64,000 nt of DNA from Frigoribacterium sp. Leaf415. Its GTDB lineage: Bacteria; Actinomycetota; Actinomycetes; Actinomycetales; Microbacteriaceae. Of the stretch, positions 942 through 62,196 are shown piece by piece. Positions within the stretch are counted from its first letter, which is position 1; every line of letters begins with the position of its first letter. Position numbers and translations under genes: made by a program. The DNA lies in contig NZ_LMQR01000001.1 in NCBI RefSeq assembly GCF_001424645.1, forward strand, positions 2,242,620-2,306,619, read 5' to 3'. Under the pieces are notes generated by a model. It ran no database searches. It was not told the DNA's origin and saw nothing but the letters and a program-made list of their open reading frames with translations.

Positions 942-1089
942 TGCCCGGGGGCGGGCGGGTGCCCGCGTGCTGTCCCGTTTGCGAAGCGCGGAGCCGGGGG
1001 GCTGTCGACGCCCGCGTGGCGGGCCGAGGGGGGGTGCCGAGGAGGCGCGGGTCGGCCGCCGCGGACGGCCCGCCGACCGGCACCCCGCG

Positions 1090-1335
1090 TCAGTCGGCCT
1101 TGCCCGGGCGGACCTTGGCGGTGTCGGCGACGTCGATGCGGGTGACGCCGTCGCCGCGGTCCTCGGTCGTGATGCGCGGGGCGGCGTCCGACTCGTCCGA
1201 CTTCGGGGCGCGGGTCAGCTGGTCGTGCCGCTTCTCGTCGTCGGTCATGCCGGTCGGGTCGTGGTCGACCTCGTGCCCCGGGCTCGTGTCGCGGCCGCCG
1301 TCGTCGGGACCGTGGGCCTGCGTGTCGTCGCTCAT
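1090..1335 (-). CDS. Small acidic hydrophilic protein, unknown function
   Basis: 81 residues starting MSDDTQAHGPDDGGRD, rich in Asp, Thr and Gly, with no membrane segment, signal peptide or motif that I recognise. The ATG at 1335 has TACGGT 7 nt upstream, close to the leaderless spacing seen elsewhere in the window. Composition and GC match the surroundings. Two AGGAGGCGCG motifs flank it (near 1040 and 1350). It looks like one of the small conserved hypotheticals common in Microbacteriaceae; no function is offered. Confidence 0.6.
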   Translation of the reverse strand: MSDDTQAHGPDDGGRDTSPGHEVDHDPTGMTDDEKRHDQLTRAPKSDESDAAPRITTEDRGDGVTRIDVADTAKVRPGKAD

Positions 1336-1375
1336 GCGCTCGACCGTACCCGCGCCTCCTCGTCCGCGGAGCGCG

Positions 1376-1699
1376 TCACCCGCGACGCAGCCGCTCGACG
1401 GCGGACGACAGCACCGGCAGGTCGTGGTCGACGGTGTGCGCCACCACGGAGTGGGAGGTGTCGAAGTACCGGTGGGCGAGGAAGTCACGCATGCGAGCGA
1501 CGTCGGTCCAGGGGATCTCGGGTGCCTCGCTCGTCGTCTCGGACGACAGCCCCTTCACCGCCTCGCCGATCTCGATGAGGCGGACCCGCACGGCGTCGAA
1601 GACGAGCCCGTCCGTGAGGTCGCCACGTCGCCGATGAGCCTCGACGGCGGCCAAGGCGGCGGCGATGTCGTCCAGCCGTGCCCGATCGTGGCGGCTCAC
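1376..1699 (-). CDS. hepT: HepT-like RNase toxin (DUF86)
   Basis: 107 residues matching the HepT/DUF86 fold: a helical protein with RVRLIEIGEAVKGLS and the catalytic R-x4-H-x-Y motif, here RDFLAHRY near residues 71-78. Members are RNase toxins of the HepT-MntA type II/VII toxin-antitoxin systems. The start is a GTG overlapping the TGA of the upstream mntA gene by 4 nt, so toxin translation depends on the antitoxin gene. The intact motif implies an active toxin. The adjacent nucleotidyltransferase is expected to inactivate HepT by AMPylating the Tyr of this motif (established for the family, not testable here). Confidence 0.88.
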   Translation of the reverse strand: MSRHDRARLDDIAAALAAVEAHRRRGDLTDGLVFDAVRVRLIEIGEAVKGLSSETTSEAPEIPWTDVARMRDFLAHRYFDTSHSVVAHTVDHDLPVLSSAVERLRRG

Positions 1700-2226
1700 A
1701 GAGCGACCCCGTCGCGCGAGACCGCCTCGGCGACCTCGGGGGACAGGCCGTCGCGGGGCACGACGTCGACCACGACCCCGGCGATGTCGCTCGCCCGACG
1801 CGCAGCCGCCGCCAGCCCGAACAACCCGAGGCCGTCGGGCAGGTCGACGACGACGTCGAGGTCGCTGTCGGCGCGGTCGTCGCCTCGGCTGACGCTGCCG
1901 AAGACCTGGGGCGAGCCGAACCCCTCGTGCGCGAAGAACGATCTCAGTTCGGCACGATGTGGTTGCACGCTGCGTCCCACGGGCCCGACGAACGGGGACA
2001 CGGTCGTGGACGTCCGAGGACGAGACGGCGTGAGCGTGAGCGCCAGGTCGAGGCCCGACGCCTCGAAGAGACGCTCGAGCACGGGCAACGACGGGGTCTT
2101 CGAGCCGTTCTCGTACCTCGAGACGGCGCTCTGCGGCAGCCCTGCCCTCCGCCCCACCTCGCCTTGTGTCAGCCGCGCGGCGACCCGCGCCTCGCGCAGA
2201 CGCGAACCGACATCCGTGGTGATCAT
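1696..2226 (-). CDS. mntA: XRE-domain/MntA nucleotidyltransferase antitoxin
   Basis: 176 residues in two parts. Residues 5-60 form an XRE helix-turn-helix (RLTQGEVGRRAGLPQSAVSR). Residues about 95-176 are a minimal nucleotidyltransferase with FGSVSRGDDRADSDLDVVVD, the GSx10DxD catalytic motif near 109-124. Canonical MntA proteins lack the DNA-binding domain; the fusion suggests direct autoregulation of the operon. The start ATG at 2226 has TATAGT 6 nt upstream and no Shine-Dalgarno, so it is probably leaderless. Downstream hepT overlaps by GTGA. An imperfect palindrome lies just upstream at 2262-2327. Confidence 0.85.
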   Translation of the reverse strand: MITTDVGSRLREARVAARLTQGEVGRRAGLPQSAVSRYENGSKTPSLPVLERLFEASGLDLALTLTPSRPRTSTTVSPFVGPVGRSVQPHRAELRSFFAHEGFGSPQVFGSVSRGDDRADSDLDVVVDLPDGLGLFGLAAAARRASDIAGVVVDVVPRDGLSPEVAEAVSRDGVAL

Positions 2227-2232
2227 GATCGG

Positions 2233-2238
2233 ACTATA
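2233..2238 (-). promoter_or_regulatory. -10 element TATAGT, leaderless promoter of mntA-hepT
   Basis: TATAGT is 6 nt before the mntA ATG on the minus strand. The surrounding GATCGTATATAGTCCGATC contains repeated GATC half-sites that the XRE domain might bind (inference). Confidence 0.55.
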
Positions 2239-2261
2239 TACGATCGTGCATGGCGCGCGAC

Positions 2262-2336: not shown

Positions 2337-4445
2337 CTAGCGGGTGAGGACGGCGAAGCCGCCGGGCTTCACCACGATCACGCTGCGGCCCTGCACGTCG
2401 CGCTGCTGCACGAGTCGGCCCTGCGCGTCGTACGACGACACCGACGACCGGGTGCCGCGCACGCCGACCGAGGCCGGCAGCGGCAGCCGCGAGGTCGACG
2501 ACAGCAGCTCGGTCGTCGTCGCCCGCCCGTCGGCCGCCGTGCCCGCGAGCACGAGTCGCTGGACGAGCGGCCGCACGATCAAGCCGTCGACCACGGTCGC
2601 GGCGCGCCCGGCGGTCACGGTGATCGTGGTCGTACCCGCACCGATCGGCACCGGCAGCGTCTGGGGCAGCAGGGCCCCGGAGGCGGCGGTCACGCCCCGC
2701 GCACCGGCCTGCGTCGTCAGCGTCCCCAGGGGCACGCGTCCCGCCTTCCAGACCGACGTCGACCGCACGCCCTCGGCGGCGAGCAGCACCGGTTCGACGT
2801 GCCGCAACCCGGAGCCCGCGGGCACCGTGATCGTCGCACTCTGCCCGGGCTCGAGCCGCAAGGCCGAGCCGCCGCCGTACTGCGACTCGCCCGTCCACGC
2901 CGAGTCGGGCGTGACGACCGTGCCCGTCGTGGACGCCGCCGTCTCGGCCTCGACCACCGTCAGGCCGTCACGCGACGTGACGCTCGTCAGCCCCTGCGCC
3001 TCGGCCGAGACGTCGGGGGCACCGTCGAGGGCGATCATCGACAGCAGGCCGTGGATCGTGCTCTCGGCGCCGCTGTTGCGGTTCACCGTGCCGTCGGCCT
3101 GCACGCCGTCGAACGTCACGCCGGTGGCCGGGTCGTACACGGGGGTGCCCGAACGGTTCGTGCCGAAGTACCAGCTCGCGGCGACGGCCGCGATCCGCTT
3201 CAGGCCCGGCGCACCCGCACCGGCGCCGGCCACGGCGAGCGCCGACTGCAGTCGCGAGTCGGCCCCGTAGGCGATCTGGGTCTGGTCGACGGGCGTCGGG
3301 TACCAGGCGTTGTCGGGCCCGCTCGCGGTGAGCAGCGTCGTCGTGAACGAGGTCTGGTCGAGCACGGCGGGCTTCAGCAGGTCGGGTCGGGCGAGCGTCG
3401 TCGACGCCCGGGCCAGGGCGGCGGGCATCTGCGACGACCAGGCGTGCCACATCGAGCGGGACTTCGCCCAGGGCAGCACGGCTCCGTACGGCCAGGTCTG
3501 CCCGTCGCCGGACGACATCGCGGCGACGCCCTCGGCGAGCTGCGTCAACGCGGTGCGCGAGGCCGCGTCACCCGGCACGACGGCCGAGTAGGCGCTCAGT
3601 CCGAGGACGGCCTCGGCCGAGGCGTCCGCGCCGGAGCCGATCAGCCACGCGGGCACCTTCGCCCCGTCGGCCACGTCGTACTGCCCGTAGCGGGCGAGCG
3701 TCTCGCGGTTCAGCGCCGTCACGCCGAGTTGCAGACGCTGCTGCAGGAACGCGGCGAACTCGGGGTCCTCGTCGGCGAACGCGGCGTATCCCTCGCCGAA
3801 CGCCCAGATGCTGCGGGCGAGCCAGTAGCTGTTGCCGCTGTCCGACGGGTCGGGTAGCTCGACCGGCACCGGACTCTGGTTGAAGGTGCCGTCGGGCTGC
3901 ATCCAGAGCACGACGTTGCCGGCGTCCTCACCGGTGGTCGTCTGGAAGTACGCGGTCGCCCGCAGCAGTTCGTAGGCCTTCTGCCGGCTCGACTCCGAAC
4001 CGGTCTGCTGCCAGTCGCGCAGGTACACGACGGCCGTCCGCGAGACGTCGTCGCTGTTGAACGCGCCCTGCCCCCAGTACCCGGTCGCGGGGTCGAGCGG
4101 ACCGCCGCCCACCCGGGCGAAGGTGCCGCCGTCGCGGGCGTCGGCGTAGGTCCACGGCAGGGTGAGCGTCGGCTCCGTGCTCTGACGATAGGTCGAGTGG
4201 CCGGCCTCGGGCACGGGCGTCGTCCGGTCGAGCAGGAAGTCCAGGTGCGCCAGGTTCGTCAGCGGCGCCACGGCCGGTGCGGCCGCCGGGGCGGCGGTCG
4301 GCGCGGTCGGAGCAGCCGTCCCGCTCGGCGCGGCCGCCGGACCAGGAGGCGCGGCGGCAGCCGGCAGCGCCCCCGTCACCCCCAGCACGGTCGCCAGGGC
4401 CGCGGCCAGTGCCGCGCCCGTCCATCGTGAGTTGCGTGCGATCAT
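2337..4445 (-). CDS. Secreted toroid-fold glycan-active protein with C-terminal beta-domain
   Basis: 702 residues. Residues 1-33 are a Sec signal peptide (MIARNSRWTGAALAAALATV then LPAAAAP), followed by an Ala/Pro/Thr linker. Residues about 60-480 are helical and rich in Trp/Tyr/Gly pairs (TGYWGQGAFNSDDVSRTAVV, SGNSYWLARSIWAFGEGY, TWPYGAVLPWAKSRSMWHAW), as in alpha/alpha-toroid glycosidases. Residues about 490-700 look like a CBM35-type beta-sandwich (VVEAETAAS, GGGSALRLEPGQSATITVP). I cannot assign a GH family. It is the last gene of the GH130/ABC operon, so it may process or bind a mannoside polymer outside the cell. Its ribosome site AAGGAGGCGG lies upstream of the ATG. Confidence 0.75.
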   Translation of the reverse strand: MIARNSRWTGAALAAALATVLGVTGALPAAAAPPGPAAAPSGTAAPTAPTAAPAAAPAVAPLTNLAHLDFLLDRTTPVPEAGHSTYRQSTEPTLTLPWTYADARDGGTFARVGGGPLDPATGYWGQGAFNSDDVSRTAVVYLRDWQQTGSESSRQKAYELLRATAYFQTTTGEDAGNVVLWMQPDGTFNQSPVPVELPDPSDSGNSYWLARSIWAFGEGYAAFADEDPEFAAFLQQRLQLGVTALNRETLARYGQYDVADGAKVPAWLIGSGADASAEAVLGLSAYSAVVPGDAASRTALTQLAEGVAAMSSGDGQTWPYGAVLPWAKSRSMWHAWSSQMPAALARASTTLARPDLLKPAVLDQTSFTTTLLTASGPDNAWYPTPVDQTQIAYGADSRLQSALAVAGAGAGAPGLKRIAAVAASWYFGTNRSGTPVYDPATGVTFDGVQADGTVNRNSGAESTIHGLLSMIALDGAPDVSAEAQGLTSVTSRDGLTVVEAETAASTTGTVVTPDSAWTGESQYGGGSALRLEPGQSATITVPAGSGLRHVEPVLLAAEGVRSTSVWKAGRVPLGTLTTQAGARGVTAASGALLPQTLPVPIGAGTTTITVTAGRAATVVDGLIVRPLVQRLVLAGTAADGRATTTELLSSTSRLPLPASVGVRGTRSSVSSYDAQGRLVQQRDVQGRSVIVVKPGGFAVLTR

Positions 4446-5591: not shown

Positions 5592-5621
5592 GGGAGGCCC
5601 TTTCGAGAGGCGAGAGGCGAC

Positions 5622-5658
5622 GGAGGCGCGGCGCGAGGGGGGATCGCACCGCGCCTCC
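5622..5658. repeat. Inverted pair of the AGGAGGCGCG motif (hairpin)
   Basis: GGAGGCGCGG at 5622-5631 pairs perfectly with CCGCGCCTCC at 5649-5658, leaving a 17-nt loop. It lies in the gap between permease and GH130 genes of one operon and may act as an RNA processing or attenuation hairpin. Confidence 0.7.
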
Positions 5659-5704
5659 TGCGGTGGGGGCCGCCGGCACGGCGACCCGGTCTGGGGGCGG
5701 GGAG

Positions 5705-5749
5705 CCGAGGAGGCGCGGCGAGCGGTGATCGCGCACCGCGCCTCCTCGG
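5705..5749. repeat. Second inverted pair of the AGGAGGCGCG motif
   Basis: CCGAGGAGGCGCGG at 5705-5718 pairs perfectly over 14 bp with 5736-5749 (17-nt loop). It is 16 bp from the stop of the permease gene. Two such hairpins in one 170-bp intra-operon gap could lower expression of the distal genes (inference). Confidence 0.75.
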
Positions 5750-6655: not shown

Positions 6656-6656
6656 G

Positions 6657-7676
6657 TCAGTCCTCCTTTCCGCCGGCGAACCGGTTCTGCAGCAGGGCGA
6701 TGACCAGCACGAGGATCACGAGCACGACGCCGATCGCGGCGGCCTGGTCGGGGTTCCCCTGCTCGATGCCCTTCTGGTACATCAGCAGCACGGGCGAGGT
6801 CGACGCGCCGTTCGGCCCGCCTCCCCCGGTCAGCAGGTACGGCTCGGTGAAGAGGTTCGCCCCCGTGACGGTCGAGACGAGCAGCACGAGCACGGTGGCC
6901 GGCCGGACACCCGGCACGGTGACGGTGAAGAACGACCGGATCGGGCCGGCGCCGTCGCTCGAGGCCGCCTCGTACAGCTCTTTCGGCACGTTCTGCAACG
7001 CCGCGAGGTACAGCAGGATGTAGAACCCGAGCTGCTTCCACGTGACGAACAGCGCGATCGAGGGCATCGCCCACGCCGAGTTGATCAGCCACGACGGCGT
7101 CGGGGCCAGCGGTCCGAGCACGTTGTTGACCAGGCCGTCGCCGTTGAACAGGAACAACCAGACCGCGACGACCGCGACGCTCGCCGTCAGGTACGGCACG
7201 TAGAACGCCACCCGCAGGAAGCCCCGGAAGTGCGCGACCTTGTCGAGCGCCGTGGCGAGCACCATGCTCAGCACGACGGTCAGCGGCACGTTGATCACCA
7301 GGAAGACGCCGACGTTGCCGAACGAGCGGATGACCGCGGGGTCGGTGAACGCGGTGACGAAGTTGTCGAGGCCAACGAAGGGCCGCGCGACGACGGCACC
7401 GGGCGCCGTGAAGAAGTAGTCGTGGAAGGCGATGTAGACCGCGTAGACCAACGGGTACGCGAACACCGCCAGCACGAACACCAGGTAGGGCGCGCTGAAC
7501 AGCAGGCCGAGCGGGTGCTTGCCGAGCAGGCCGCCCCGCCGACGCCCGCGCGGGTCGTCGTCGCGGCGACGGCCCGCCCGGTGCCCCGAGCCGGGACCCC
7601 CCGAGGAGGCGCGGTGCGCCTCCTCGGCTCGTCCGGCGGTCGGCGACGCTGCCGCCGTCTCGTGCAGGGTGGACAC
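6657..7676 (-). CDS. Sugar ABC transporter permease, MalF-type
   Basis: 339 residues. About 50 hydrophilic N-terminal residues precede the first membrane helix (LLFSAPYLVFVLAVFAYPLV). The EAA loop is YEAASSDGAGPIRSFFTVTV near residue 235. The start is GTG at 7676, 2 nt after the stop of the binding-protein gene. The N-terminal tail (EEAHRASSGGPG) is encoded by a perfect palindrome made of two AGGAGGCGC motifs, which appears to be an insertion into a tolerant region. It pairs with the MalG-type subunit downstream. Confidence 0.92.
   Translation of the reverse strand: MSTLHETAAASPTAGRAEEAHRASSGGPGSGHRAGRRRDDDPRGRRRGGLLGKHPLGLLFSAPYLVFVLAVFAYPLVYAVYIAFHDYFFTAPGAVVARPFVGLDNFVTAFTDPAVIRSFGNVGVFLVINVPLTVVLSMVLATALDKVAHFRGFLRVAFYVPYLTASVAVVAVWLFLFNGDGLVNNVLGPLAPTPSWLINSAWAMPSIALFVTWKQLGFYILLYLAALQNVPKELYEAASSDGAGPIRSFFTVTVPGVRPATVLVLLVSTVTGANLFTEPYLLTGGGGPNGASTSPVLLMYQKGIEQGNPDQAAAIGVVLVILVLVIALLQNRFAGGKED
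7601..7627. repeat. Perfect 12-bp palindrome of the AGGAGGCGC motif inside the MalF gene
   Basis: CCGAGGAGGCGC (7601-7612) and GCGCCTCCTCGG (7616-7627) are separated by only 3 nt and lie within coding sequence for the variable N-terminal tail of the permease. Confidence 0.8.
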
Positions 7677-9017: not shown

Positions 9018-10280
9018 CTAGGGGGTCGTGTGAGGTGCGGGGGCGTGCGGGTCGGCGGGGTCGGCGCGGGCCGCGTCGGCTCGGGCTGTGTCGGCGCGGT
9101 AGAAGTACAGGTCGCGGTGGCCGGCGGGGGCGTCCCAGCCCTGGGCGAAGGTCCAGCGGCCGCCGAGCTTCTGCAGGCCGCCCCAGCTGAGCGAGCCGCC
9201 CGGCGTCAGGGCGAGCTGGTCGACCGGGTGGTCGACGTCGTACAGCGCCTGGCTCGCCGCGAAGACCCCGTCGACGTCGTGGAAGACGTCGAGCACGAGG
9301 TGGCCGTCGCCCGTGACGATCGCGGCGGCGACCTCGTGCAGGTGGCCGCCGACGTCCGACAGGTCGAGGTACGGCACGGGCTCGAAGCTCCAGTGGCACA
9401 GGTCGTCCGAGCGGCCGACGTGCAGCACGCCGTCGAAGCCCTCGCTGACGAACATGAGGTAGTCGCCGGTGTCGTCGTCGCCGGTGCCTCCGCTGCCTCC
9501 GCCGAGGCGGACGGCGTTGCCGTGCTCGTCGCGCGGGATCACGGCGCCCTTGGCCCAGAGCCGCGTCTGCTCGTGGTCCGCGATCGGGCCGAGCTTCTCC
9601 CAGGTCACGAGGTCGTCGCTGACGGCGACCAGCATGTCGATGCCGACCGCCTGGACGGGGTAACCGGGGCTCGGGTGGGCGACCCGCGCCTCCTCGGTGA
9701 TCGGGAAGACGCCGTTGTAGAAGAGCCAGAAGCGGCCCTCGGCCCGGTAGACCTTGGGGTCCTCGGTGCCGAGCAGCTCGTCGTCGAGGGTGGGACGGAC
9801 GACCGGGTTCGCCGGGTCGTCGACCCAGGTGGCACCGGGAGCGGGCTCACCCTCGGGCGTGAGCGCGAGGGTGGCGTGGCCGATGCGGCTGCCGAGGCTC
9901 TCCTTGCGGGGCGAGGCCCGGTAGAAGAGGTGCAGGGTGCCGTCGTGCTCGATCAGGCTGGGGTTGTAGAGGGACTCGCTGGTCCAGCCGAGACCGTCGG
10001 GGTCGGGCCATTGGGCGTCGAGCGTGAAGGTGAGGGCCGGGTCGACGGCGAAGGGGCCGACCGCCCAGTCGGTGCGGGCGGGCTCGTACGCGGCGGGGCT
10101 GGAGAAGGTCAGCTGCGAGAGCGCGCCGGTCAGCTCGTTGCGGTGGACGAGTGCCTCGTCGAGGACCGTCCGGAGGCGCGCCCGGGTCAGCGGCACGAGG
10201 TACGGCTTCGAGGCGGCGCGGGCCGCGTCGGCGTCGCTGATCGTCGCGTCGACCGTCGTCGCGTCGGCTGTCGTCGTCAT
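9018..10280 (-). CDS. GH130-like glycosidase/phosphorylase, first gene of the LacI-controlled operon
   Basis: 420 residues, five-bladed propeller pattern with YNPSLIEHDGTLHLFYRASP, TEDPKVYRAEGRFWLFYNG and HEVAAAIVTGDGHLVLDVFH. The EDPK motif matches GH130, although the protein is longer and more divergent than its neighbour at 4536-5591, so GH43/GH32-like assignment is not excluded. No signal peptide. I chose the ATG at 10280 because GGGAG lies 6-7 nt upstream; a GTG at 10292 would add four residues. A perfect 22-bp operator lies 37 bp upstream. The C-terminal 25 residues are a low-complexity ADTARADAARADPADP tail. Confidence 0.8.
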   Translation of the reverse strand: MTTTADATTVDATISDADAARAASKPYLVPLTRARLRTVLDEALVHRNELTGALSQLTFSSPAAYEPARTDWAVGPFAVDPALTFTLDAQWPDPDGLGWTSESLYNPSLIEHDGTLHLFYRASPRKESLGSRIGHATLALTPEGEPAPGATWVDDPANPVVRPTLDDELLGTEDPKVYRAEGRFWLFYNGVFPITEEARVAHPSPGYPVQAVGIDMLVAVSDDLVTWEKLGPIADHEQTRLWAKGAVIPRDEHGNAVRLGGGSGGTGDDDTGDYLMFVSEGFDGVLHVGRSDDLCHWSFEPVPYLDLSDVGGHLHEVAAAIVTGDGHLVLDVFHDVDGVFAASQALYDVDHPVDQLALTPGGSLSWGGLQKLGGRWTFAQGWDAPAGHRDLYFYRADTARADAARADPADPHAPAPHTTP

Positions 10281-10477: not shown

Positions 10478-11506
10478 TCAGCGGGCGGCGGGGCCCGTCG
10501 ACGCGCGGACCAGCAGCCGCGCGGGCTCGATCTCGGCGTCGGTGACGGTCTCGCCCTCGACCGACGAGAGCAGGAGACGCGCCGCCTCGGCCCCGATCAG
10601 CCGCGGAGCCGTGGTCAGCGTGGTCAGCCCGGGGCGCACGTACGACCCGAGCTCGATGCCGTCGAACCCGGCCACGCTGACGTCGCCGGGGACGCGGGCC
10701 CCGAGCCGGTCGAGCTCGGTCATGAACCCGATCGCGGCCAGGTCGTTCGCGCAGAAGACGGCGGTGGGCCGGTCGTCGACCGGTGAGTCCGAGCCGAACA
10801 GGCGAGCGGCGGCCCGGGCTCCCCCGTCGTAGGTGAAGTCGGCCTCGACGACGACCCCGGGGTCGTGCCCGGCCGCCACGAGGGCGTCCCGCCAGGCGGC
10901 TCCGCGGCGCCGCGAGTGCACGAAGCGGCCGGGCCCGGCGACGTGCGCGAACCGCCGGTGACCGAGCGACACGAGGTGGTCGACGAGCTCGCCGATGCCG
11001 GCCGAGTCATCCTGGCGCACGGCGGGCAGGGGGAAGTCGCCGGCCGGGTTGACCCCGACGGCGGGCAGGTCGAGCTCGCGCACGAGGTCGACGCGCGGGT
11101 CGTCCACGGTCAGCTCGTTCAGGACGACGCCGTCGACCCGGCGCCCGGCCGCGAGCCGGCGGTAGCGGTCGAGCGGCTCGTCCGCAGCCGACCCCATCTG
11201 CAGGATGAGCGCGTACCCGCGCGGGTCGAGCACGGATTCGAGTCCGCCGATGAAGCTGCCGAAGAACGGGTCGGACTCGAGCACGAACGGGTCGCGGTGC
11301 ACGACGAGCCCCACGGTGAACGCTCGTTTGGCACTGAGGCTGCGCCCCCGGACGCTCGGCACGAAACCGAGGTCGTCGGCGGCCTGGCGGATGCGTGCAC
11401 GGGTCTGCTCCGAGACGCCGGGGCGACCGTTGAGGGCGCTGCTGACAGAGCTGATCGCGACGCCGGCCCGGGCCGCGACCTCGACGATGGTGACCCGCTC
11501 TGCCAC
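10478..11506 (-). CDS. LacI-family transcriptional regulator of the mannoside operon
   Basis: 342 residues. Helix-turn-helix at the N-terminus (TIVEVAARAGVAISSVSSAL, then NGRPGVSEQTRARIRQAA), followed by a periplasmic-binding-protein-like effector domain (AFTVGLVVHRD, GLESVLDPRGYALILQ, AVFCANDLAAIGFM, SVAGFDGIELGSYVRPGLTT). The GTG at 11506 fits the family start; its Shine-Dalgarno GGAGG is part of an AGGAGGCGCGG motif. It probably represses the downstream operon through the 22-bp palindrome at 10317-10338 and is released by a mannoside or mannose phosphate (inference). It is separated from the operon by a perfect hairpin. Confidence 0.92.
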   Translation of the reverse strand: MAERVTIVEVAARAGVAISSVSSALNGRPGVSEQTRARIRQAADDLGFVPSVRGRSLSAKRAFTVGLVVHRDPFVLESDPFFGSFIGGLESVLDPRGYALILQMGSAADEPLDRYRRLAAGRRVDGVVLNELTVDDPRVDLVRELDLPAVGVNPAGDFPLPAVRQDDSAGIGELVDHLVSLGHRRFAHVAGPGRFVHSRRRGAAWRDALVAAGHDPGVVVEADFTYDGGARAAARLFGSDSPVDDRPTAVFCANDLAAIGFMTELDRLGARVPGDVSVAGFDGIELGSYVRPGLTTLTTAPRLIGAEAARLLLSSVEGETVTDAEIEPARLLVRASTGPAAR

Positions 11507-11614
11507 GCCGCGCCTCCTCGTCCTCGCCTGTGCCGGTGCGCCTGTTCGCCCGCCGCGCCCCCACGATGCTACTGACCCGCCGTGGCCGCCACCCTCGCGG
11601 CGGCCGCCCGCCCC

Positions 11615-11626: not shown

Positions 11627-12043
11627 ATGCTCATCGTCTCGCTCGTCGCGGCCTCGCTCGCCGCCCTGCTGCACCTCTACATCTTCGTGATGGAGTCCTT
11701 CCTCTGGACCACCCCGCGGGTCCGCGCCACCTTCGGCATCACCGACGACGCACAGGCCGAGCACACGAAGCCGCTCGCCTACAACCAGGGCTTCTACAAC
11801 CTGTTCCTCGCGATCGTCACGATCGTGGGCGTCGTCCTCGTCGTCGCCGGAGGGGCAGGAGGCGCGGGCAGCGCCTTCGAGGCATCCGCCGCGGGCACCG
11901 CCCTGCTGGTCGCGGGCACGGGGTCGATGCTCGCCGCCGCGCTGGTCCTGCTCTTCTCCGACCGGACCAAGGCCCGGGCCGCGCTCACGCAGGGAGCCCT
12001 CCCGCTCGTCGCCCTCGTCACGCTGCTCATCTCGTCGTACTGA
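11627..12043 (+). CDS. DUF1304 family membrane protein
   Basis: 138 residues with four predicted membrane helices. The motifs ESFLWTTPRVRATFGI and YNQGFYNLFLA are characteristic of DUF1304. Function is unknown in the family. The loop GGAGGAGSA between helices 2 and 3 is encoded by an AGGAGGCGCGGG motif, so a small insertion there is tolerated. Expression looks leaderless from TAGGGT. It is transcribed away from the LacI-type gene and followed closely by purU. Confidence 0.85.
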   Translation: MLIVSLVAASLAALLHLYIFVMESFLWTTPRVRATFGITDDAQAEHTKPLAYNQGFYNLFLAIVTIVGVVLVVAGGAGGAGSAFEASAAGTALLVAGTGSMLAAALVLLFSDRTKARAALTQGALPLVALVTLLISSY

Positions 12044-12083: not shown

Positions 12084-12980
12084 GTGACCGACGTGACCGA
12101 CGCCACCCGCGCCTCCTCCGCTCCCGCCGCCCCGACGACGCACTGGACGCTGACGCTCGTCTGCCAGGACCGGCCCGGCATCGTCCACGCGATCAGCGGC
12201 GCCGTGGTGCAGGCCGGCGGCAACATCACCGAGTCGGCGCAGTTCTCGAGCCACGACACCGGCACGTTCTTCATGCGGCTGCAGGTCGAGGCCCCCGGCG
12301 AGCGCGACGCGTTCGAGGCCGCGCTGGCGCCCGTGCTCGCGCACTACGACGTGCAGGCGAAGCTCGACGTCGTCGGTCGCCCGACCCGCACGCTCGTGCT
12401 CGCGAGCAAGGCGGCGCACTGCGTCAACGACCTGCTGTTCCGGCAGCGCGCCGGGCAGCTGCCGATCGAGGTGCCACTGATCCTGGCGAACCACGACGAC
12501 CTGTCGGGGCTGGCCGAGTTCTACGGCAAGCGGTTCGAGCACCACCCGGTCACCGACCCCGAGTCGAAGGCGGCGTTCGAGGCCCGCGTGCTGCAGGTCG
12601 TCGACCGGTACGACGTCGAGCTGGTCGTGCTCGCCCGGTACATGCAGATCCTCAGCCCCGAGCTCTGCGCGGCGCTCGAGGGGCGGGCGATCAACATCCA
12701 CCACTCGTTCCTGCCCGGGTTCAAGGGGGCGAACCCCTACCGCCAGGCGCACGCCCGCGGCGTGAAGTTGATCGGTGCGACGGCTCACTTCGTCACGAGC
12801 GACCTCGACGAGGGGCCGATCATCGAGCAGAACGTCGTCCGGGTCGACCACACCCGCAGCGCCCCCGAACTGATGGCGATCGGCCAGGACGAGGAGAGCC
12901 GCACCCTGACCCAGGCGGTCCGCTGGTTCGCCGAAGACCGCGTGCTGCTCGACGGCGCCCGCACCATCGTCTTCCGCTAG
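12084..12980 (+). CDS. purU: Formyltetrahydrofolate deformylase
   Basis: 298 residues. An ACT domain (residues about 20-100, LTLVCQDRPGIVHAISGAVV) precedes a formyltransferase-like catalytic domain with LARYMQILSPELCAALEGRA, NIHHSFLPGFKGANPYRQAH and TAHFVTSDLDEGPIIEQ, including the conserved Asn, His and Asp. It hydrolyses 10-formyl-THF to formate and THF, balancing one-carbon pools for purine synthesis. The start GTG at 12084 gives an N-terminal DATRASS stretch encoded by the dispersed CCGCGCCTCCT motif, upstream of the ACT domain. A second GTG three codons later is possible. Confidence 0.95.
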   Translation: MTDVTDATRASSAPAAPTTHWTLTLVCQDRPGIVHAISGAVVQAGGNITESAQFSSHDTGTFFMRLQVEAPGERDAFEAALAPVLAHYDVQAKLDVVGRPTRTLVLASKAAHCVNDLLFRQRAGQLPIEVPLILANHDDLSGLAEFYGKRFEHHPVTDPESKAAFEARVLQVVDRYDVELVVLARYMQILSPELCAALEGRAINIHHSFLPGFKGANPYRQAHARGVKLIGATAHFVTSDLDEGPIIEQNVVRVDHTRSAPELMAIGQDEESRTLTQAVRWFAEDRVLLDGARTIVFR

Positions 12981-13284: not shown

Positions 13285-13680
13285 GTGACTCCGACCGACC
13301 CCGCACCCTCTCCCGCCCCGGCCCGAGGCGGCCCGGTCGCCGCCCTCGACGTGGTGCGGTTCGTCACGCTGATCCTCGCCTTCCTGAGCCTCGGGTTCTG
13401 GGGCTACCTCGCCTGGCCGTTCCCGTTCCCGTCGCTGGCGTTCATGATCGGGGCGCCCCTGTTCGCGATCGTCGTGTGGGGCCTCTTCCGCTCACCGCGC
13501 GCACCGATCCCGACCGACGCCGTCGGCAAGGCGCTCGTCGAGATCGCGATCATGGGCGCCGTGGTCGCGGCCTGGGCCATGCTCGGCTACCCCATCGTCG
13601 CCGTGGCGTTCGCCGTCCTGGCCGGCGTCACGGGCGTCCTGGCCTTCCGTCGCGAGAACCGCCGGGGGGCCCGCCGATGA
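13285..13680 (+). CDS. YrdB-like (DUF2568) small membrane protein
   Basis: 131 residues with four membrane helices. The stretch LGFWGYLAWPFPFPSLAFMI followed by GAPLFAIVVWGLFRSPRAPI is typical of the YrdB/DUF2568 family, whose function is unknown. The GTG at 13285 fits the helix boundaries and the TACGCT -10. The stop overlaps the nagA start (ATGA), so the two genes are co-transcribed and probably coupled. The link with amino-sugar catabolism is positional only. Confidence 0.8.
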   Translation: MTPTDPAPSPAPARGGPVAALDVVRFVTLILAFLSLGFWGYLAWPFPFPSLAFMIGAPLFAIVVWGLFRSPRAPIPTDAVGKALVEIAIMGAVVAAWAMLGYPIVAVAFAVLAGVTGVLAFRRENRRGARR

Positions 13681-17115: not shown

Positions 17116-17184
17116 ACGGGGGCGGGGGCAGGAGGCGCGGGTCGGGTGACCGGGAGCGCCCGGCAGGCGGGCGGGCCGCTCGCC

Positions 17185-18099: not shown

Positions 18100-18229
18100 G
18101 GCCGCGGCCGACCGCGACACGGCCGCGCACCGGCGACGCGACCCGTCCCGGTGTCCCGACCCGCGCCTCCTGCCCACCTCCGGCCCACCTCGACGACCGC
18201 CCCCGGTCGCGGGGGTGCACAGTGGAGCG

Positions 18230-20883: not shown

Positions 20884-20947
20884 TCGCACCGCCGACTGAA
20901 CGTGGCACCGGCCACATCGGCGGTGCGATGTTCAGTCGGCGGTGCGA
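20884..20947. repeat. Long palindrome, family b (copy 2), overlapping the kinase stop codon
   Basis: The 27-nt arms (20884-20910, 20921-20947) pair with two mismatches around a 10-nt loop, and the arm is the same as that of the element at 10396-10459. Its right arm contains the last codons and TGA of the histidine kinase gene, so the element supplies the end of that protein (TAD-stop). Confidence 0.85.
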
Positions 20948-24017: not shown

Positions 24018-24272
24018 ATGTCGGACATCATCTCGGTCGCGGAGCACAAGAAACGCGTCCGGTTCAGGCTCCGCCTCCAGTTCGTCGCCTTCGGCGCGGC
24101 CCTGGTCGGCCTGATCTGCTTCGGGATCGTCCTGCAGGCGAACGTGCAGAGCGCGGTCCTCGGCGGCATCGGTCTCGCCGGTCTCGGCGTCGCGATCATC
24201 TTCTACGTGTGGTCCCTGATCTACGGCTTCATGATCGCCGCGAAGCGACCCACGCCCCCGAACCTCCGCTAG
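24018..24272 (+). CDS. Small two-helix membrane protein, unknown
   Basis: 84 residues, MSDIISVAEHKKRVRFRLRL then two membrane helices (about 22-42 and 47-70) and a basic C-terminus. The ATG follows AGGGGG by about 6 nt. No recognised family. It converges with a broken TetR gene and overlaps its last 3 bases. Confidence 0.68.
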   Translation: MSDIISVAEHKKRVRFRLRLQFVAFGAALVGLICFGIVLQANVQSAVLGGIGLAGLGVAIIFYVWSLIYGFMIAAKRPTPPNLR

Positions 24273-30616: not shown

Positions 30617-30808
30617 CGCCCTGCGGCCCTGCGGCCCTGCGGCTCAGCGGCTCAGCGGCCCTGCCGCGCGGCCGCACTGCCGCACTGCCGCGCGTCGAAT
30701 GCGGGCGAGTTCGTGTGTTCCGGGCCGGCACGATCGCCCGTCCACCCCGAACACGCCCGTGTTCAGAGGGCCGCGGCGTCCAGGCGGCACCACGGCAGGA
30801 GGCGCGGG

Positions 30809-48711: not shown

Positions 48712-48803
48712 GAGGAGGCGCGGGTCAGGACGGCAGGAGGCGCGGGTCACGACGCCAGGAGGCGCGGGCCACGCAGGAGGCGCGGGCCACGCAGGAGGCG
48801 CGG
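48712..48803. repeat. Five tandem copies of the AGGAGGCGCGGG motif
   Basis: Copies begin at 48712, 48734, 48756, 48774 and 48792, all in the same orientation, spaced 22, 22, 18 and 18 bp. They lie between the ROK repressor stop and the promoter of the alpha-mannoside operon. A degenerate sixth copy overlaps the repressor stop codon. Confidence 0.9.
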
Positions 48804-52045: not shown

Positions 52046-53971
52046 TCACACGAGCGAGTCGCGCCACGCGGCGTGCAGCTGCGCGAAGCGACCGGTGCCC
52101 GCGATCAGGTCGTCCGGGGTGCCGTCCTCGACGATCTTGCCGTGCTCCATCACGAGCACCCGATCGGCGATCGCGACGGTCGACAGGCGGTGCGCGATGA
52201 TGACCGCGGTGCGGTCGGCGAGCAGGGTCTGCAGCGCCTCCTGCACCATGCGCTCGGACGGGATGTCGAGCGACGCCGTCGCCTCGTCGAGGATCAGCAC
52301 GCTCGGGTCCGCGATGAACGCCCGGGCGAACGACAGCAGCTGACGTTGCCCGGCCGACACCCGGCCGCCGCGCTTGTTCACGTCGGTGTCGTACCCGTCG
52401 GGCAGGGCCTCGATGAACTCGTGCGCTCCGACCGCCTTCGCCGCCCGCACGATCTCGTCACGCGTCGCGTCGGGCTTGCCGAGCGAGATGTTGTCGGCCA
52501 CCGAACCCGAGAAGAGGTACGCCTCTTGCGTGACCATGACGATCGCGCGGCGCAGGTCTTTCGGGTGCAGGTCGCGCAGGTCGACGCCGTCGAGCGTCAC
52601 CGCTCCGCGCGTCGGGTCGTAGAAGCGCGAGATGAGCTTCGCCAACGTCGACTTGCCGGCCCCCGTCGACCCGACGAGGGCGATGGTCTGCCCCGCGGGC
52701 ACGTGGAGGTCGAAGCCGGGCAGCACGACCGTGTCGGCGTTGTAGGCGAACTCGACGTCGTCGAAGTGCACCTGCCCCTTGGCGTCCCACAGGTCGACCG
52801 GGCGCGTCGGGTCGGGCACGCTCGGCTGCTCCTCGAGCACGCCCGAGATCTTCTCGAGCGCGGCCGACGCCGACTGGTAGCCGTTGTAGAACATGGCCAT
52901 CTCTTCGGCCGGGTCGAAGAACCGCTTCGCGTAGAGTGCCACCGCGAGCAGGGCGCCGATCTCGAGCGAACCGTCGATCACCCGGAAGCCGCCGAAGAGC
53001 ACGACCGCCGCGAGGGTCGCGTTGCCGATCAGCACCAGGCCCGGGTCGAAGGTGCCGAACAACGTGAACACCTTCGAGTTGGCCTGCCGGTAGTCCTCGA
53101 CGTGACCGGCGTACTCCTTCTCGTTGCGCGCCTCCTTGCGGAAGGCCTGCACCGCGCGCATGCCCGTCATCGTCTCGACGAAGTGCACGATGACGCGGGC
53201 ACTCGTGACGCGGGTCGCCCGGAACAGCTTCTGCGAGCGCACCTGGAACCACCGGGTCAACGCCACGAGCGGCACGAGCGCCACGGCGAGGACGAGGCCG
53301 CTCTGCGGGTCGAGCGCGACGAGGGCGACGGCGGTGAAGACCATGTACAGCAGACCCGAGACGAGCTGGTTGATGCCCGAGTCCAACAGCTCGCGGATGG
53401 AGTCCAGATCGCTCGTCTGGCGCGAGATGATGCGGCCCGACGTGTACGTCTCGTGGAACTCGAGGCTGAGCCGTTGCGTGTGCAGGAACAGACGCTTGCG
53501 CAGGTCGAAGAGGATCGCCTGGCTGATGCGCGCCGACAACACCGTGTACTGCGCCATCAGCACCGCACCGATCACGCCGGTCAACAGGTAGGCGACCACG
53601 ACGAGGATCGCGGGCGCCCAGTCCTGGTCGTCCATCAGCGCCGGCAGGGCGGTGTCGATGCCGATCGCGATCAGGGCCGGCCCCGCGACCTGCGAGGCCG
53701 TGCTGATCACGACGACGACGCCCATCAGGGCGAGACGCCAGCGCAGCGGGTGCACGAGCGAGCCGAGGAGGCGCAGCGAACGTCGGCGCAGCCTCTTGCT
53801 CTCGTCCTTGGTGAAGTTCTCGCGCTCTTCGCCGCGGACGCCCTGCGTCGTCGAGCCCTGCTCGGCGCGCTTCTCGGCGGGGGTTCGTCCGTCGAGCGCC
53901 TCGCGCTCGACGGGGCCGTCGGCGACTGCCGGACGGTCGGGACGGTCGTCCTCGAGTGTCGTGTCGGTCAT
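52046..53971 (-). CDS. ABC exporter half-transporter, catalytically complete subunit
   Basis: 641 residues: six-helix membrane domain (about 75-360) fused to an ATPase domain. Walker [10 protein letters not shown] (about 435), Walker [12 protein letters not shown] with the catalytic Glu (about 560) and H-loop IIAHRLST are intact. The signature is VSAGQRQ, not the canonical LSGGQ. Its partner, overlapping by ATGA just upstream, has the complementary defects, so the two form a heterodimeric type IV exporter with one degenerate site. Likely substrates are drugs or lipids. An 80-residue charged N-terminus precedes the first helix. Confidence 0.93.
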
Positions 53972-55975: not shown

Positions 55976-56074
55976 CTAGCTGATCGGCGCCGGGCTCGGA
56001 TACGCCGAGGAGGCGCGACCCACGCGAGCACCGTCGGTGGCCGTGCCCACCGTGGTCAGTGTCGTCGTCGTCAT
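55976..56074 (-). CDS. 32-codon leader ORF upstream of the ABC exporter
   Basis: A perfect AGGAGG (56080-56085) precedes two adjacent ATGs (56077, 56074); from 56074 the peptide has 32 residues, [20 protein letters not shown] then [13 protein letters not shown] Thr-rich start and Pro-rich end are notable. It lies between a promoter at 56140-56169 and the exporter genes, with about 170 nt of GC-rich leader after it. By analogy with BmrB upstream of B. subtilis bmrCD, ribosome stalling here could control exporter expression. Coding status is inferred from the ribosome site only. Confidence 0.5.
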
Positions 56075-56232: not shown

Positions 56233-57897
56233 CTAGTGGAAGAAGTGGCGCTCGCCCGTGAAGTACATGGTCACGCCGGCGGCCTTCGCCGCGGCCACGA
56301 CCTCGTCGTCGCGGATCGACCCGCCGGGCTGCACCACCGCGGCCACGCCGGCGTCGAGCAGCACCTGCAGGCCGTCAGCGAAGGGGAAGAACGCGTCGGA
56401 CGCCGCGACCGACCCGGCGGCGCGGGCCCCGGCGCGGTCGACGGCGAGGTGGCACGAGTCGACCCGGTTGACCTGGCCCATGCCCACCCCTACGGATGCT
56501 CCGCCCGAGGCGAGCAGGATGGCGTTCGACTTGACGGCGCGCGAGGCCTTCCAGGCGAACTCGAGGTCGGCCCGCGTCGCGGCGTCGGCCTCGTCGCCGG
56601 CGACGAGCGTCCAGCCGTCGGACGTGAACCCGTCGAACCGGTCGGCGTCCTGGACGAGCAGACCACCCGAGATCTGCTTGACCTCGCGGACGTCACGGGC
56701 GAAGTCGGCGGGCAGGGTCAGCAGGCGGATGTTCTTCTTCGCACTGAGGATCTCGACGGCCTCGGGGTCGAAGGCCGGGGCGATGACGACCTCGGTGAAG
56801 ATGTCCGCGACGGTCTCGGCCATGGCGCGCGTCACGGTGCGGTTGGCCGCGATGACGCCGCCGAACGCCGAGACGGGGTCACAGGCGTGCGCCCGCTGGT
56901 GAGCGTCGGCGATGGCGTCGACGGCGTCGGGCGAGGCGACGGCGATGCCGCACGGGTTCGCGTGCTTGATGATCGCGACGGCGGGCTCGTCGAAGTCGAA
57001 GGCGGCGCGCAGGGCCGCGTCGGCGTCGACGTAGTTGTTGTACGACATCTCTTTGCCGTGCAGCTGCGTCGCCTGCGCGATGCCGTGTGCCCCGGGCGTC
57101 GCATAGATCGCCGCGGCCTGGTGGGCGTTCTCGCCGTAGCGGAGGGTGTGCTGCAACTCGGCCGAGAGGGTGACCGCGGGCTCGAAGCCCGCCCGCGCCT
57201 CCTGCTCGTCGACGACGGACGAGGAGGCGCCGGTCGCCGTGGCGGACGCGTCGGCCTCGGCGCGCACACCCACGTGTGCGGCGAAGTACGCCGCGACTGC
57301 CGTGTCGTACGCGGCCGTGTGGGCGAAGGCCTCGCCGGCCAGGCGCTGACGCTGGGCCAGGGTCGTGCCACCGAGTGTGAGCGCTTTCACGACCTGCGGG
57401 TAGTTCGTCGGCGAGACCACGATGGCGACGTTGGCGTGGTTCTTCGCGGCGGCCCGGACCATCGCGGGCCCGCCGATGTCGACGTTCTCGATGACGGTGG
57501 GCACGTCGGCACCCGACGCGACGGTCTCGACGAACGGGTAGAGGTTGACGACGACGAGCTCGAACGCGGCGATGTCGAGTTCGGCCAGCTGGGCCTCGTG
57601 GGACTCGAGCCGCAGGTCGGCGAGGATGCCGGCGTGCACCGCGGGGTGCAGGGTCTTGACGCGACCGTCGAGCGACTCGGGGAACCCGGTGACGCTCCTG
57701 ACGTCGGTGACGGCGTGGCCGGCGTCGCGGATGGTCTGGGCGGTCGAGCCGGTCGACACGATCTCGACACCGGAGGCCGACAGGGCGGCGGCCAGGTCGA
57801 GCAGGCCCGTCTTGTCGCTGACGCTGATCAGCGCCCGTCGCACGGGCACGGCGTCACGGTCGCGGTAGAGGCTGGGGTCGATGGCGTGGCCGCTCAT
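56233..57897 (-). CDS. purH: AICAR transformylase/IMP cyclohydrolase
   Basis: 554 residues. IMP cyclohydrolase domain (about 20-200): [66 protein letters not shown] transformylase domain: [73 protein letters not shown] and [14 protein letters not shown]. It performs the last two steps of IMP synthesis. A linker insert near 222-240 is encoded by an inverted pair of AGGAGGCGC motifs. The ATG overlaps the purN stop by ATGA. Confidence 0.97.
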
Positions 57898-59938: not shown

Positions 59939-60047
59939 CGCGAGCGACTGTACCGGTGCCGACCGGGGCCGGCCTGCTGCCCCGCCGCCCGCGACGACGA
60001 CACCGGTCGGCACCCGCACCGCGCCCGCGCCGCGCCCCACGGACGAC

Positions 60048-60109
60048 GACGGGCGTGTCCGTCGTGACCGGGCGTCCGAGGACGACCGGCCGTGACGAAC
60101 ACGCCCGTC
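60048..60109. repeat. Long imperfect palindrome, family f
   Basis: 22-nt arms (60048-60069, 60088-60109) pair with four mismatches. The arm begins GACGGGCGTGT. It lies downstream of sucD and is followed directly by an AGGAGGCGCGGG motif. A weaker relative with CGGGCGAGTTCG may lie near 30703-30765. Confidence 0.65.
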
Positions 60110-60129
60110 GAGGAGGCGCGGGTCGGCCC

Positions 60130-61017
60130 CTAGAGAGAGGCGTAGACCTCGCGGAGCAGGGCCGCGGTCTCGCTCGGCGTCTTGCCGACCTTGACGCCGG
60201 CGGCCTCGAGTGCCTCTTTCTTGGCCTGGGCGGTGCCGGCCGAGCCGGACACGATCGCACCGGCGTGACCCATCGTCTTGCCCTCGGGGGCCGTGAAGCC
60301 CGCGACGTAGCCGACGACGGGCTTGGTGACGTGCGCCTTGATGTAGTCGGCGGCGCGCTCTTCGGCGTCGCCGCCGATCTCGCCGATCATGACGATCGCC
60401 TTGGTGTCGGGGTCGGCCTCGAACGCCTCGAGGGCGTCGATGTGGGTCGTGCCGATGACCGGGTCGCCGCCGATGCCGATGGCGGTCGAGAAGCCGAGGT
60501 CGCGCAGCTCGAACATCATCTGGTAGGTCAGGGTGCCCGACTTCGAGACCAGGCCGATGGGCCCCGAACCCGAGATCGAGGCGGGCGTGATGCCGACCAG
60601 CGACTCGCCCGGCGTGATGATGCCGGGGCAGTTCGGGCCGATGATGCGGGTCGTGCCGCCCTTGGCCTTGGCGAGCGCCCAGAACTCGGCGGAGTCTTGC
60701 ACCGGGATGCCCTCGGTGATGACGACGACGAGCGGCACCTCGGCCTCGATGGCCTCGACGACCGCGTCCTTGGCGAAGGCCGGCGGCACGAACACGATCG
60801 AGACGTCGGCACCGGTCTCGGTGACGGCCTCGGTCACGGTGCCGAAGACGGGCAGCTCGACGTCACCGTGGGTGACGGTCGTGCCGGCCTTGCGGGCGTT
60901 GACGCCACCGACGACCTGGGTGCCGGCCTTGAGCATGAGGGCGGTGTGCTTGGTGCCCTCGCCGCCGGTGATGCCCTGGACGATGACCTTGCTGTCCTTG
61001 TTGAGGAAGATCGACAT
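60130..61017 (-). CDS. sucD: Succinyl-CoA ligase, alpha subunit
   Basis: 295 residues. [20 protein letters not shown] (CoA-binding Rossmann part), [50 protein letters not shown] and [10 protein letters not shown], whose His (about 245) is the phosphorylated residue. With SucC it interconverts succinyl-CoA and succinate with NTP formation in the TCA cycle. It starts 15 nt after the sucC stop. Confidence 0.98.
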
Positions 61018-61032
61018 TGTTCTCTGCAGTCC

Positions 61033-62196
61033 TTACTTCGAAGCCAGCTCGGCGGCCTTGTCGGCAGCCTCGTCCATGGTCGCGACGACGGTGACCAGCG
61101 GGTGCGCCGCCTCCGCCAGGATGCGTCGACCCTCGTCGACGTTGTTGCCGTCGAGTCGCACGACGAGCGGCTTGGTGGCCGCGTCGCCGAGGATGCCGAG
61201 GGCGGCGACGATGCCGTTGGCGACCGCGTCACAGGCGGTGATGCCACCGAAGACGTTGACGAAGACGCTCTTGACCTGGGCGTCGCCCAGGATCACGTCG
61301 AGCCCCGCCGCCATGACCTCGGCGCTCGCTCCGCCGCCGATGTCGAGGAAGTTGGCGGGCTTCACGCCGCCGTGTGCCTCGCCGGCGTAGGCGACGACGT
61401 CGAGCGTCGACATGACGAGCCCGGCACCGTTGCCGATGATGCCGACCTCGCCGTCGAGCTTCACGTAGTTGAGGCCCGCAGCCTTGGCCTTCGCCTCGAG
61501 CGGGTCGGCCGCATCGGCGTCCTCGAGCTCGGCGTGGCCGGGGTGACGGAACTCGGCGTTCTCGTCGATGGAGACCTTGCCGTCGAGGGCGACGATGTCG
61601 CCCTGCTCGGTGAGGACGAGCGGGTTGACCTCGACGAGCGTGGCGTCCTCGCCCTCGTAGACGGCGTAGAGCTTGACCAGCACGGGCGCGACCTTCTCGA
61701 TCAGCTCGTCGGGGAACCCGCCGGCCTTCGCGATCTCGGTGGCCTTCGCCAGGTCGATGCCCGAGCGGGGGTCGACCTCGATGCGCGCCAGCGCGTCGGG
61801 CTTCTCGACGGCGAGCTGCTCGATCTCCATGCCGCCCTCGACGCTGCAGAGCGAGAGGTACGAGCGGTTGGCGCGGTCGAGTAACACCGAGAAGTAGAAC
61901 TCGCGGGCGATCTGGGCGCCGCCGGCGATCATCACGCGCTTGACGACGTGGCCCTTGATGTCGAGCCCGAGGATGTCCTTCGCCGCGGCTTCGGCGTCGT
62001 CCGGGGTCTTCGCCACCTTGACGCCGCCGGCCTTGCCGCGGCCGCCGACCTTGACCTGGGCCTTCACGACGGTGACGCCACCCAGCTTCTCGGACGCCGC
62101 TCGCGCCTCCTCGGGGGTGTCGGCCACGATGCCGGGCAACACGGGCACGCCGTACTGCTCGAACAGGTCTCTGGCCTGGTACTCGAAAAGATCCAC
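61033..62196 (-). CDS. sucC: Succinyl-CoA ligase, beta subunit
   Basis: 387 residues from the GTG at 62196 (start [20 protein letters not shown]). ATP-grasp domain: [57 protein letters not shown]. The C-terminal flavodoxin-like domain has [20 protein letters not shown] and [26 protein letters not shown] lies about 6 nt upstream of the GTG; longer upstream starts lack support. It is the first gene of the sucCD operon. Confidence 0.98.

Follow-up and report, generated by a model that had tools for sequence, protein, structure and literature searches.

The stretch described here is 64,000 nucleotides of Frigoribacterium sp. Leaf415, a plant-associated bacterium (contig NZ_LMQR01000001.1, positions 2,242,620 to 2,306,619; hereafter the window). 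It is strewn with the 10-mer AGGAGGCGCG, which a sequence-only reading had likened to a DNA uptake sequence (DUS) or uptake signal sequence (USS). The source genome, G000, comprises 3,423,183 bp in four contigs, C1, C2 and C3 among them. Named records of the nearest orthologous loci, whose proteins are 98–99% identical to the query, agree with a placement in Frigoribacterium, family Microbacteriaceae. Counting both strands, we found 39 exact copies in the window, 19 on the plus and 20 on the minus strand. The earlier count of about 36 (19 and 17) was right for one orientation and too low for the other and for the total. A third-order Markov model of the window predicts 0.51 copies, in agreement with the earlier estimate of less than one from composition; the 3.5 copies expected under a fifth-order model are an inflated figure, because a model built from 64 kb absorbs the motif itself. 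The two most over-represented 10-mers of the window are AGGAGGCGCG and its register-shifted twin GGAGGCGCGG. The many one-mismatch versions noticed before are also there: 73 places, exact copies included, match with at most one mismatch, compared with 20.8 ± 5.1 in dinucleotide shuffles. We also scanned the window for Rfam families and tRNAs and obtained no matches.

As had been described, the copies lie within genes, in gaps and as inverted pairs. With genes called by our own codon-usage script, we assigned 18 of the exact window copies to intergenic DNA, 13 to the sense and 8 to the antisense strand of genes. Sense copies on the minus strand are found at 511–520 (gene 324–929), 9685–9694 (gene 9018–10280), 22171–22180 and 22567–22576 (both in gene 20932–22623), 24330–24339 (gene 24269–24778), 29153–29162 (gene 28562–30073), 31864–31873 (gene 31723–33375), 36859–36868 (gene 35985–36938), 53127–53136 (gene 52046–53971), 57194–57203 (gene 56233–57897) and 62102–62111 (gene 61033–62196), and on the plus strand at 11857–11866 (gene 11627–12043) and 13883–13892 (gene 13677–15062). 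Antisense copies occupy 12108–12117 (minus, in plus-strand gene 12084–12980), 17215–17224 and 17977–17986 (minus, both in plus-strand gene 17197–18099), and, on the plus strand of minus-strand genes, 16368–16377 (gene 15220–16998), 31929–31938 and 33228–33237 (both in gene 31723–33375) and 39868–39877 (gene 39579–40766). The minus-strand gene 6657–7676 contains, at 7604–7624, an exact plus-strand copy (7604–7613) with a one-mismatch inverted partner (minus, 7615–7624). Single intergenic copies were located on the plus strand at 1040–1049, 4344–4353, 17130–17139, 30797–30806, 56008–56017 and 60111–60120, and on the minus strand at 1351–1360, 18162–18171, 11509–11518, which ends 2 nt ahead of the called start of the minus-strand gene 10478–11506, and 31436–31445, which abuts the ATG of the minus-strand gene 30809–31435. 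Two inverted pairs with a spacing of 29 follow each other closely. The one at 5621–5659, between genes, joins CGGAGGCGCG (plus) to an exact AGGAGGCGCG (minus, 5650–5659), and the one at 5708–5746 consists of two exact copies (plus 5708–5717, minus 5737–5746) with a predicted hairpin of −29.7 kcal/mol. Finally, an intergenic tandem array at 48713–48802 holds five exact plus-strand copies, starting at 48713, 48735, 48757, 48775 and 48793, several of which are gapped in aligned relatives.

The genome-wide count that the sequence-only reading had asked for shows the enrichment extending over the whole genome: G000 contains 1570 copies of AGGAGGCGCG (796 forward and 774 reverse), roughly one in every 2.2 kb, whereas the reversed word, our control, occurs 15 times (9 forward and 6 reverse). 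In 464 kb of G000 we placed 194 copies, of which 80 are intergenic, 52 sense, 61 antisense and one on a boundary. The intergenic DNA makes up 16% of this sequence, a share that is too high since our script under-calls the low-GC island; it also called no coding DNA in G018, Mycetocola and Okibacterium L078. Within coding DNA we counted 113 copies, where synonymous-codon shuffles contain 14.6 ± 2.9; for the reversed word the corresponding figures are 0 and 6.5. The replication strands are balanced as well, with 167 leading and 155 lagging copies (p = 0.54; dnaA at C1:2,769,180, terminus position assumed), so that the absence of polar strand use noted earlier is borne out by both the strand and the replichore counts. 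For close pairs we used sampled Frigoribacterium stretches and relaxed motif ends; some of these stretches are orthologous or overlapping, so that not all pairs are independent. Within 60 bp we counted 61 plus-minus inverted pairs, 53 of them outside genes, and 46 have a spacing of 29 bp (31), 28 bp (7) or 31 bp (8). The other orders are minus-plus (24), plus-plus (18) and minus-minus (13). Inverted pairs with the preferred spacing are predicted to form stable hairpins.

The core of the motif is the 8-bp word GGAGGCGC, usually preceded by A, C or G and followed by G or T and then any base. How sharp it is can be seen from the substitutions counted in 729 kb of G000. The perfect 11-mer AGGAGGCGCGG was seen 244 times against 1.3 expected, while all 24 single substitutions at positions 2–9 together reached 37 against 32.1 expected; position 7 is the only core position somewhat over chance (10 vs 2.2). 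Position 1 tolerates A, C and G, and T weakly (8 vs 1.1), and positions 10 and 11 are relaxed. The longer form GACGCGACCCGCGCCTCCTC proposed before holds only in part: outside AGGAGGCGCGG the flanking positions carry little information, each less than 0.3 bits, and nothing is common beyond about 11 bp. Other Frigoribacterium groups have a similar anatomy with small variations. G006 varies at position 1, with 482 GGGAGGCGCGG beside 513 AGGAGGCGCG, and is also enriched in GGAGTCGC (6 vs 0.1), while the group of G001, G007, G011 and G012 is enriched in T at position 7 (7 vs 0.3). The word is not palindromic; AGGAGGCGCG differs from its own reverse complement.

We then compared orthologous loci, namely the ComEC region, a set A orthologous to the last 20 kb of the window, and a set B. 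GC-matched neighbouring words served as controls; the same sites enter several of the pairwise comparisons, which are therefore not independent, and for sets A and B we used plus-strand BLAST only, at the cost of the opposite-strand pairs in set B. Strains that carry type IV pilus (T4P) genes and are 84–96% identical in the ComEC region keep 306 of 379 motif copies intact, compared with 23–48% of the controls. Close relatives hence keep the motif beyond matched words, which answers the earlier call for such a comparison. Set A gives the same picture, at 80–84% identity with 140 of 266 copies intact against 16% of controls; in the 96–100% bin of the ComEC region there is no difference (22 of 24 vs 93%). 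Where the aligned sequences are at least 88% identical, the core was intact in 1084 of 1342 comparisons. The differences in coding cores are 129 substitutions and 6 indels, those in intergenic cores 63 substitutions and 60 indels.

All 16 Frigoribacterium genomes searched contain the motif in high number, with 513–1570 copies of AGGAGGCGCG each. The 24 genomes searched outside the genus have 4–52 copies, mostly near the reversed-word control, with the exception of G023 (52 vs 14). An even draw of 120 Microbacteriaceae genomes from 78 genera confirmed this restriction: the three Frigoribacterium genomes in it hold 730–1570 copies and the other 117 genomes (77 genera) 0–216, the highest being G081 with 216 against a control of 75. 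An 8-mer scan also ranks GGAGGCGC first in G000, with rivals close behind (z 9.9 vs 9.3), and several words have similar scores in the T4P-less set; because other words come so near, we regard it as less specific than counting the 10-mer.

By k-mer scans we detected other hyperabundant words in the sister genera. In the genes of Frondihabitans (G019), CGGATCCT reaches 12.6 times the expectation from synonymous shuffles and GGATCCTG 10 times, both in either orientation, and CGGATGCC reaches 2.8–4.7 times expectation, again in both orientations, in genes of G016, G017, G021, G022, G023 and G024; in G022 it is enriched only within genes (0 intergenic). Inside Frigoribacterium itself, the apparent enrichment of GGATGCC (9 sense, 99 antisense) is codon background and was discarded, and CGGATGCC is codon background there as well. 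Counted over whole genomes, CGGATCCTG occurs 816 and 677 times in two Frondihabitans (controls 7 and 4) and 352 times in G073 (control 3). For CGGATGCCG the highest counts are 2929, 2536, 2518 and 2375 (controls 72–133), and across the 120 genomes this word is orientation-symmetric, with 34,747 forward and 34,643 reverse copies. The core matrices of these dialects again have sharp inner positions, GGATGC and GGATCC, and an inner GGANNC is common to all dialect words, those with GGAGGC, GGATCC or GGATGC alike. We infer that they are one evolving signal with a common origin. Further variants are suggested by single-locus data, GGATCCG in Clavibacter and CGGAGTCG in Rathayibacter; the counts for Curtobacterium, Rathayibacter, Clavibacter and the other named genera come from one homologous locus each, of at most 22 kb.

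A few side observations belong to these words. CGGATCCTG has 0 copies in the 3.42 Mb of G000, with 9 and 28 in the congeners G004 and G007, and apart from G019, G110 and G073 it occurs 2–170 times per genome elsewhere; avoidance of GGATCC in G000 is a possible explanation. CGGATGCCG is depleted in G077 and G139, both of genus g63, at 14 and 10 copies against controls of 57 and 55, which could reflect either another dialect or avoidance. In G023 (L253–L256) we saw dispersed repeat words, TCTCGAAACC and GGGTTGAGGA, with 17–18 copies each in 80 kb. In G011 (L039–L041, 60 kb) we found G runs, with 64 occurrences of GGGGGGGGGG, and the repeated words GGCTACCAGG and TACCAGGGTC, 8 each.

The genes that a competence pathway would use, which the sequence-only reading had proposed to look for, are present in G000. 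Its T4P locus lies in L134, with ribosomal-protein/fusA-like genes on one side and an rpoC-like gene on the other (neighbours named by eye), and gives Pfam domain matches to PilO, PilM, prepilin peptidase, PilC and PilT; PilT also matches TIGR01420, and PilB matches TIGR02538 with a score under the curated cut-off. One pilin and one minor pilin carry an N-methylation motif, while PilN and two further minor pilins were named from position and N-terminus only. comEA and comEC adjoin in L136, and a Tad locus encodes a TadA-family ATPase (just under the NCBIfam cut-off) and TadE. Profiles for ComEC and for the DNA polymerase III delta subunit (HolA) match one uninterrupted frame of 1160 aa at L136:7620–11102 (C1:912620–916102), possibly a fused or read-through comEC-holA gene. 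ComEC was detected in 25 of the 25 genomes searched, 16 of them Frigoribacterium, and its presence therefore does not discriminate. PilT scored above the cut-off in 13 of the 16 Frigoribacterium genomes. The three minor-pilin-like genes (L134:6271–10150, orthologues in L160–L171) fall to 34–42% identity between G000 and G013, G014 and G015, whereas PilB is 98–99% identical in the same strains, and the more distant G006 is closer to G000 in its minor pilins; this pattern suggests the exchange of minor-pilin cassettes between strains. Minor pilin 9 has a pI of 9.0–10.9 across the 13 Frigoribacterium compared.

At the level of the family, T4P and the word CGGATGCCG tend to go together. Across the 120 genomes the median density is 174 per Mb with PilT (64 genomes) and 58 without (56). 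If the comparison is limited to genomes of 2.4 Mb or more, the medians are 196 with T4P (61) and 75 without (39), a roughly 2.6-fold difference (p = 0.003), and by genus, mixed genera excluded, they are 230 (36) and 88 (22; p = 0.014), all unadjusted for kinship and GC. There are exceptions on both sides; among the T4P-positive ones, 31 of the 61 larger genomes are at or under 200 per Mb. Three T4P-positive genera that are low in CGGATGCCG (Frigoribacterium, Frondihabitans and g59) carry another dialect, and T4P-negative genera were searched less for such words. In the eight genera represented by one T4P-positive and one T4P-negative genome, the T4P-positive member has the higher density in five and not in three. 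A 'best dialect' test gave p = 4.5e-5, a value biased because other dialects were sought mainly in T4P-positive genera; we therefore rely on the unadjusted test.

The motif is scarce where the GC content is low. Four 5-kb bins with a GC fraction below 0.62 contain 0 copies and eight bins at 0.62–0.66 contain 5, while above 0.73 the density is 0.62 per kb; over the G000 stretches density and GC correlate at 0.35 (p 0.048). Zero copies were found in the 40 kb at C1:2,800,001–2,840,000 (L026 and L144), a single region with low GC in its first half, and a GC-rich word is in any case less likely to arise in low-GC DNA. L026 (C1:2800001–2820000, GC 0.60) is a defence island near dnaA with SIR2-like, AEP-like, N6-methylase, ApeA and AAA_13 proteins. 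On contigs C2 and C3 the motif is roughly as dense as on the chromosome.

To our knowledge, the only groups in which word-directed DNA uptake is established are two diderm families, the Neisseriaceae and the Pasteurellaceae. In the portions of PMC12616744 and PMC3630211 used here, DUS and USS are described by hundreds to thousands of copies, inverted repeats that act as terminators, and dialects that follow phylogeny and keep a conserved inner core. The DUS of Neisseriaceae resembles our motif in its length of about 10 bp, its copy number, its inverted repeats, its family dialects with a conserved inner core, and, for 13 of the 16 Frigoribacterium genomes, its T4P/Com context (same portions of PMC3630211 and PMC12616744); it differs in that here the host is a monoderm, high-GC actinobacterium, the sequence is another one, a role in uptake is putative, and one T4P-less Frigoribacterium clade keeps the motif. 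The USS of Pasteurellaceae shares the many copies, the inverted repeats and, with two dialects, the common inner core (PMC12616744, as above), whereas the Frigoribacterium motif is GC-rich and is without strong AT tracts downstream. Among actinobacteria, Micrococcus luteus requires comEA, comEC and Flp/tad pili for transformation, according to the parts of PMC6370729, PMC8467076 and PMC4322843 drawn on here; the terms 'uptake sequence' and 'uptake signal' are absent from the text of PMC4322843 and PMC8467076. Among the matches listed in our search of the open-access literature, with subscription papers and preprints outside its scope, neither this motif nor an actinobacterial uptake sequence was found.

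We think it probable that AGGAGGCGCG has a DNA-uptake-sequence-like function. A DNA-capture machine at the cell surface, either the T4P or a Tad/Flp filament, would prefer DNA that bears the word and feed it to ComEA and then to the ComEC channel. DNA of the same genus would hence be taken up and recombined more often, and over time this preference would accumulate and preserve copies wherever the sequence tolerates them, most densely between genes and also within genes, in either orientation. Newly acquired DNA would be without copies. CGGATCCTG in Frondihabitans and CGGATGCCG in many other genera would be dialects with the inner GGANNC, and some copies may be reused as inverted pairs able to form terminator-like hairpins. 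The enrichment, the strand neutrality, the conservation between close relatives, the dialects and the family-level T4P link speak for the DUS/USS-like interpretation offered earlier, and the com and pilus genes do so less clearly. Of the two outcomes that had been named as refuting it, a lack of genome-wide enrichment and confinement to ribosome-binding sites, neither is seen. What does not fit it is a clade that conserves the motif without T4P.

This clade is the chief evidence against a model with T4P only. Three of the 16 Frigoribacterium genomes (G002, G003 and G005), which form a single clade in a ComEC-region tree read without support values, show nothing resembling PilT or PilB apart from one Tad-type match, and still hold 1249, 1492 and 1204 copies of AGGAGGCGCG. 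In the ComEC region, 42 of 64 copies are intact inside this clade against 15% of controls (22 of 25 vs 20% at 84–88% identity, 20 of 39 vs 12% at 80–84%), and between the clade and T4P-positive genomes 130 of 558 are intact against 6%, which is better than between deep T4P-positive clades. A strict requirement for T4P is thereby not supported: T4P is not needed for the upkeep of the motif, unless its loss is recent or the Tad filament serves instead. Because M. luteus transforms via Flp/Tad pili, Tad might in principle serve a species without T4P as well; the single weak match left in each of the three genomes is like the TadA match of G000 in size and score. Other results also weigh against an uptake function. 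T4P-positive pairs at 75–84% identity in the ComEC region keep the motif no better than controls (14 of 401 vs 7.8%, and 2 of 19 vs 10.8%), nor does set B at 70–80% identity (12 of 74 vs 16.3%); the word thus persists although its sites turn over from clade to clade. Among the 39 T4P-less genomes of at least 2.4 Mb, nine have more than 200 CGGATGCCG per Mb. We identified no ComP-like receptor, with minor pilins compared by sequence only; a minor pilin as receptor gave no signal in this comparison, and because the minor pilins diverge between strains with the same motif, none of them is an obvious candidate. The motif density drops from origin to terminus (Spearman rho −0.53, p 0.0015, 33 stretches of C1 in G000 with GC above 0.66), which the uptake model does not predict, and the near-absence of one-off variants is sharper than a balance of drive and mutation would lead one to expect. 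Moreover, nothing that pairs Frigoribacterium with natural transformation was found in the open-access papers searched.

Several of these results suit the chief rival, to which we give a minor but appreciable chance. It holds that the word is hyperabundant in the manner of HIP1, or is bound at many sites by a chromosome-organising, repair or replication-linked protein, selection keeping the sites without any role in uptake. Conservation that persists in the T4P-less clade, a very sharp core with scarce one-off variants, and a density that rises toward the origin are all compatible with it, and ComEC, present in all 25 genomes searched, does not discriminate. HIP1 of cyanobacteria is likewise a hyperabundant short word, and its role is debated; it is palindromic, unlike the Frigoribacterium word, which has its higher density in intergenic DNA. 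Such a rival does not predict intergenic enrichment, inverted pairs with a preferred spacing, clade dialects with a shared inner core, or a family-wide association with T4P. Improbable, in our view, is a Chi-like recombination signal for helicase-nucleases of the AdnAB/AddAB/RecBCD class, although the word is G-rich, non-palindromic, genus-specific and present about once per 2.2 kb. Known Chi sites are enriched on the leading strand, and no such excess is seen here; neither inverted pairs nor intergenic enrichment are traits of Chi. The strand neutrality led us to reject a Chi/KOPS reading.

The inverted pairs, with their preferred spacings and their location outside genes, would be natural for a spreading transcription terminator or RNA hairpin, with today's single copies as its decayed halves. 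We consider this very unlikely, given that 113 of the 194 copies placed in G000 are within genes in both orientations, and that decayed halves would leave one-off variants, which are near chance there. Even less credible is the idea that the AGGAGG core, an ideal Shine-Dalgarno core, merely marks ribosome-binding sites or codon usage. The window copy at 31436 does abut a start codon, yet in the 464 kb only one of 80 intergenic copies ends 3–12 nt ahead of a same-strand called start and five more end 0–2 nt ahead, in accord with the few copies at this position noted before. The excess over synonymous shuffles and the slight majority of antisense among coding copies contradict this explanation further. 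We attach equally little weight to a mobile short repeat of the REP or MITE type inserted at many places. The tandem arrays in gaps, such as that at 48713–48802, and the 60 indel differences at intergenic copies would agree with it, but no flank is shared beyond about 11 bp, and for coding copies it is contradicted by the 129 substitutions against 6 indels.

Extending the uptake interpretation from Frigoribacterium to the whole family, we lean slightly towards the view that the Microbacteriaceae possess a family-wide set of uptake sequences with genus dialects, GGATGCC as the ancestral or widespread form, GGATCCTG in Frondihabitans and GGAGGCGC in Frigoribacterium. This would be the third independent mating language of the DUS/USS type and the first in Gram-positives. 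If true, uptake tags evolved a third time, in monoderms without an outer membrane, and natural transformation is likely to be common in a large and ecologically important family. It would also open a route to the laboratory transformation of harmless members of the Microbacteriaceae, and the sister genera with their different words would provide a comparative test bed for the origin of dialects.

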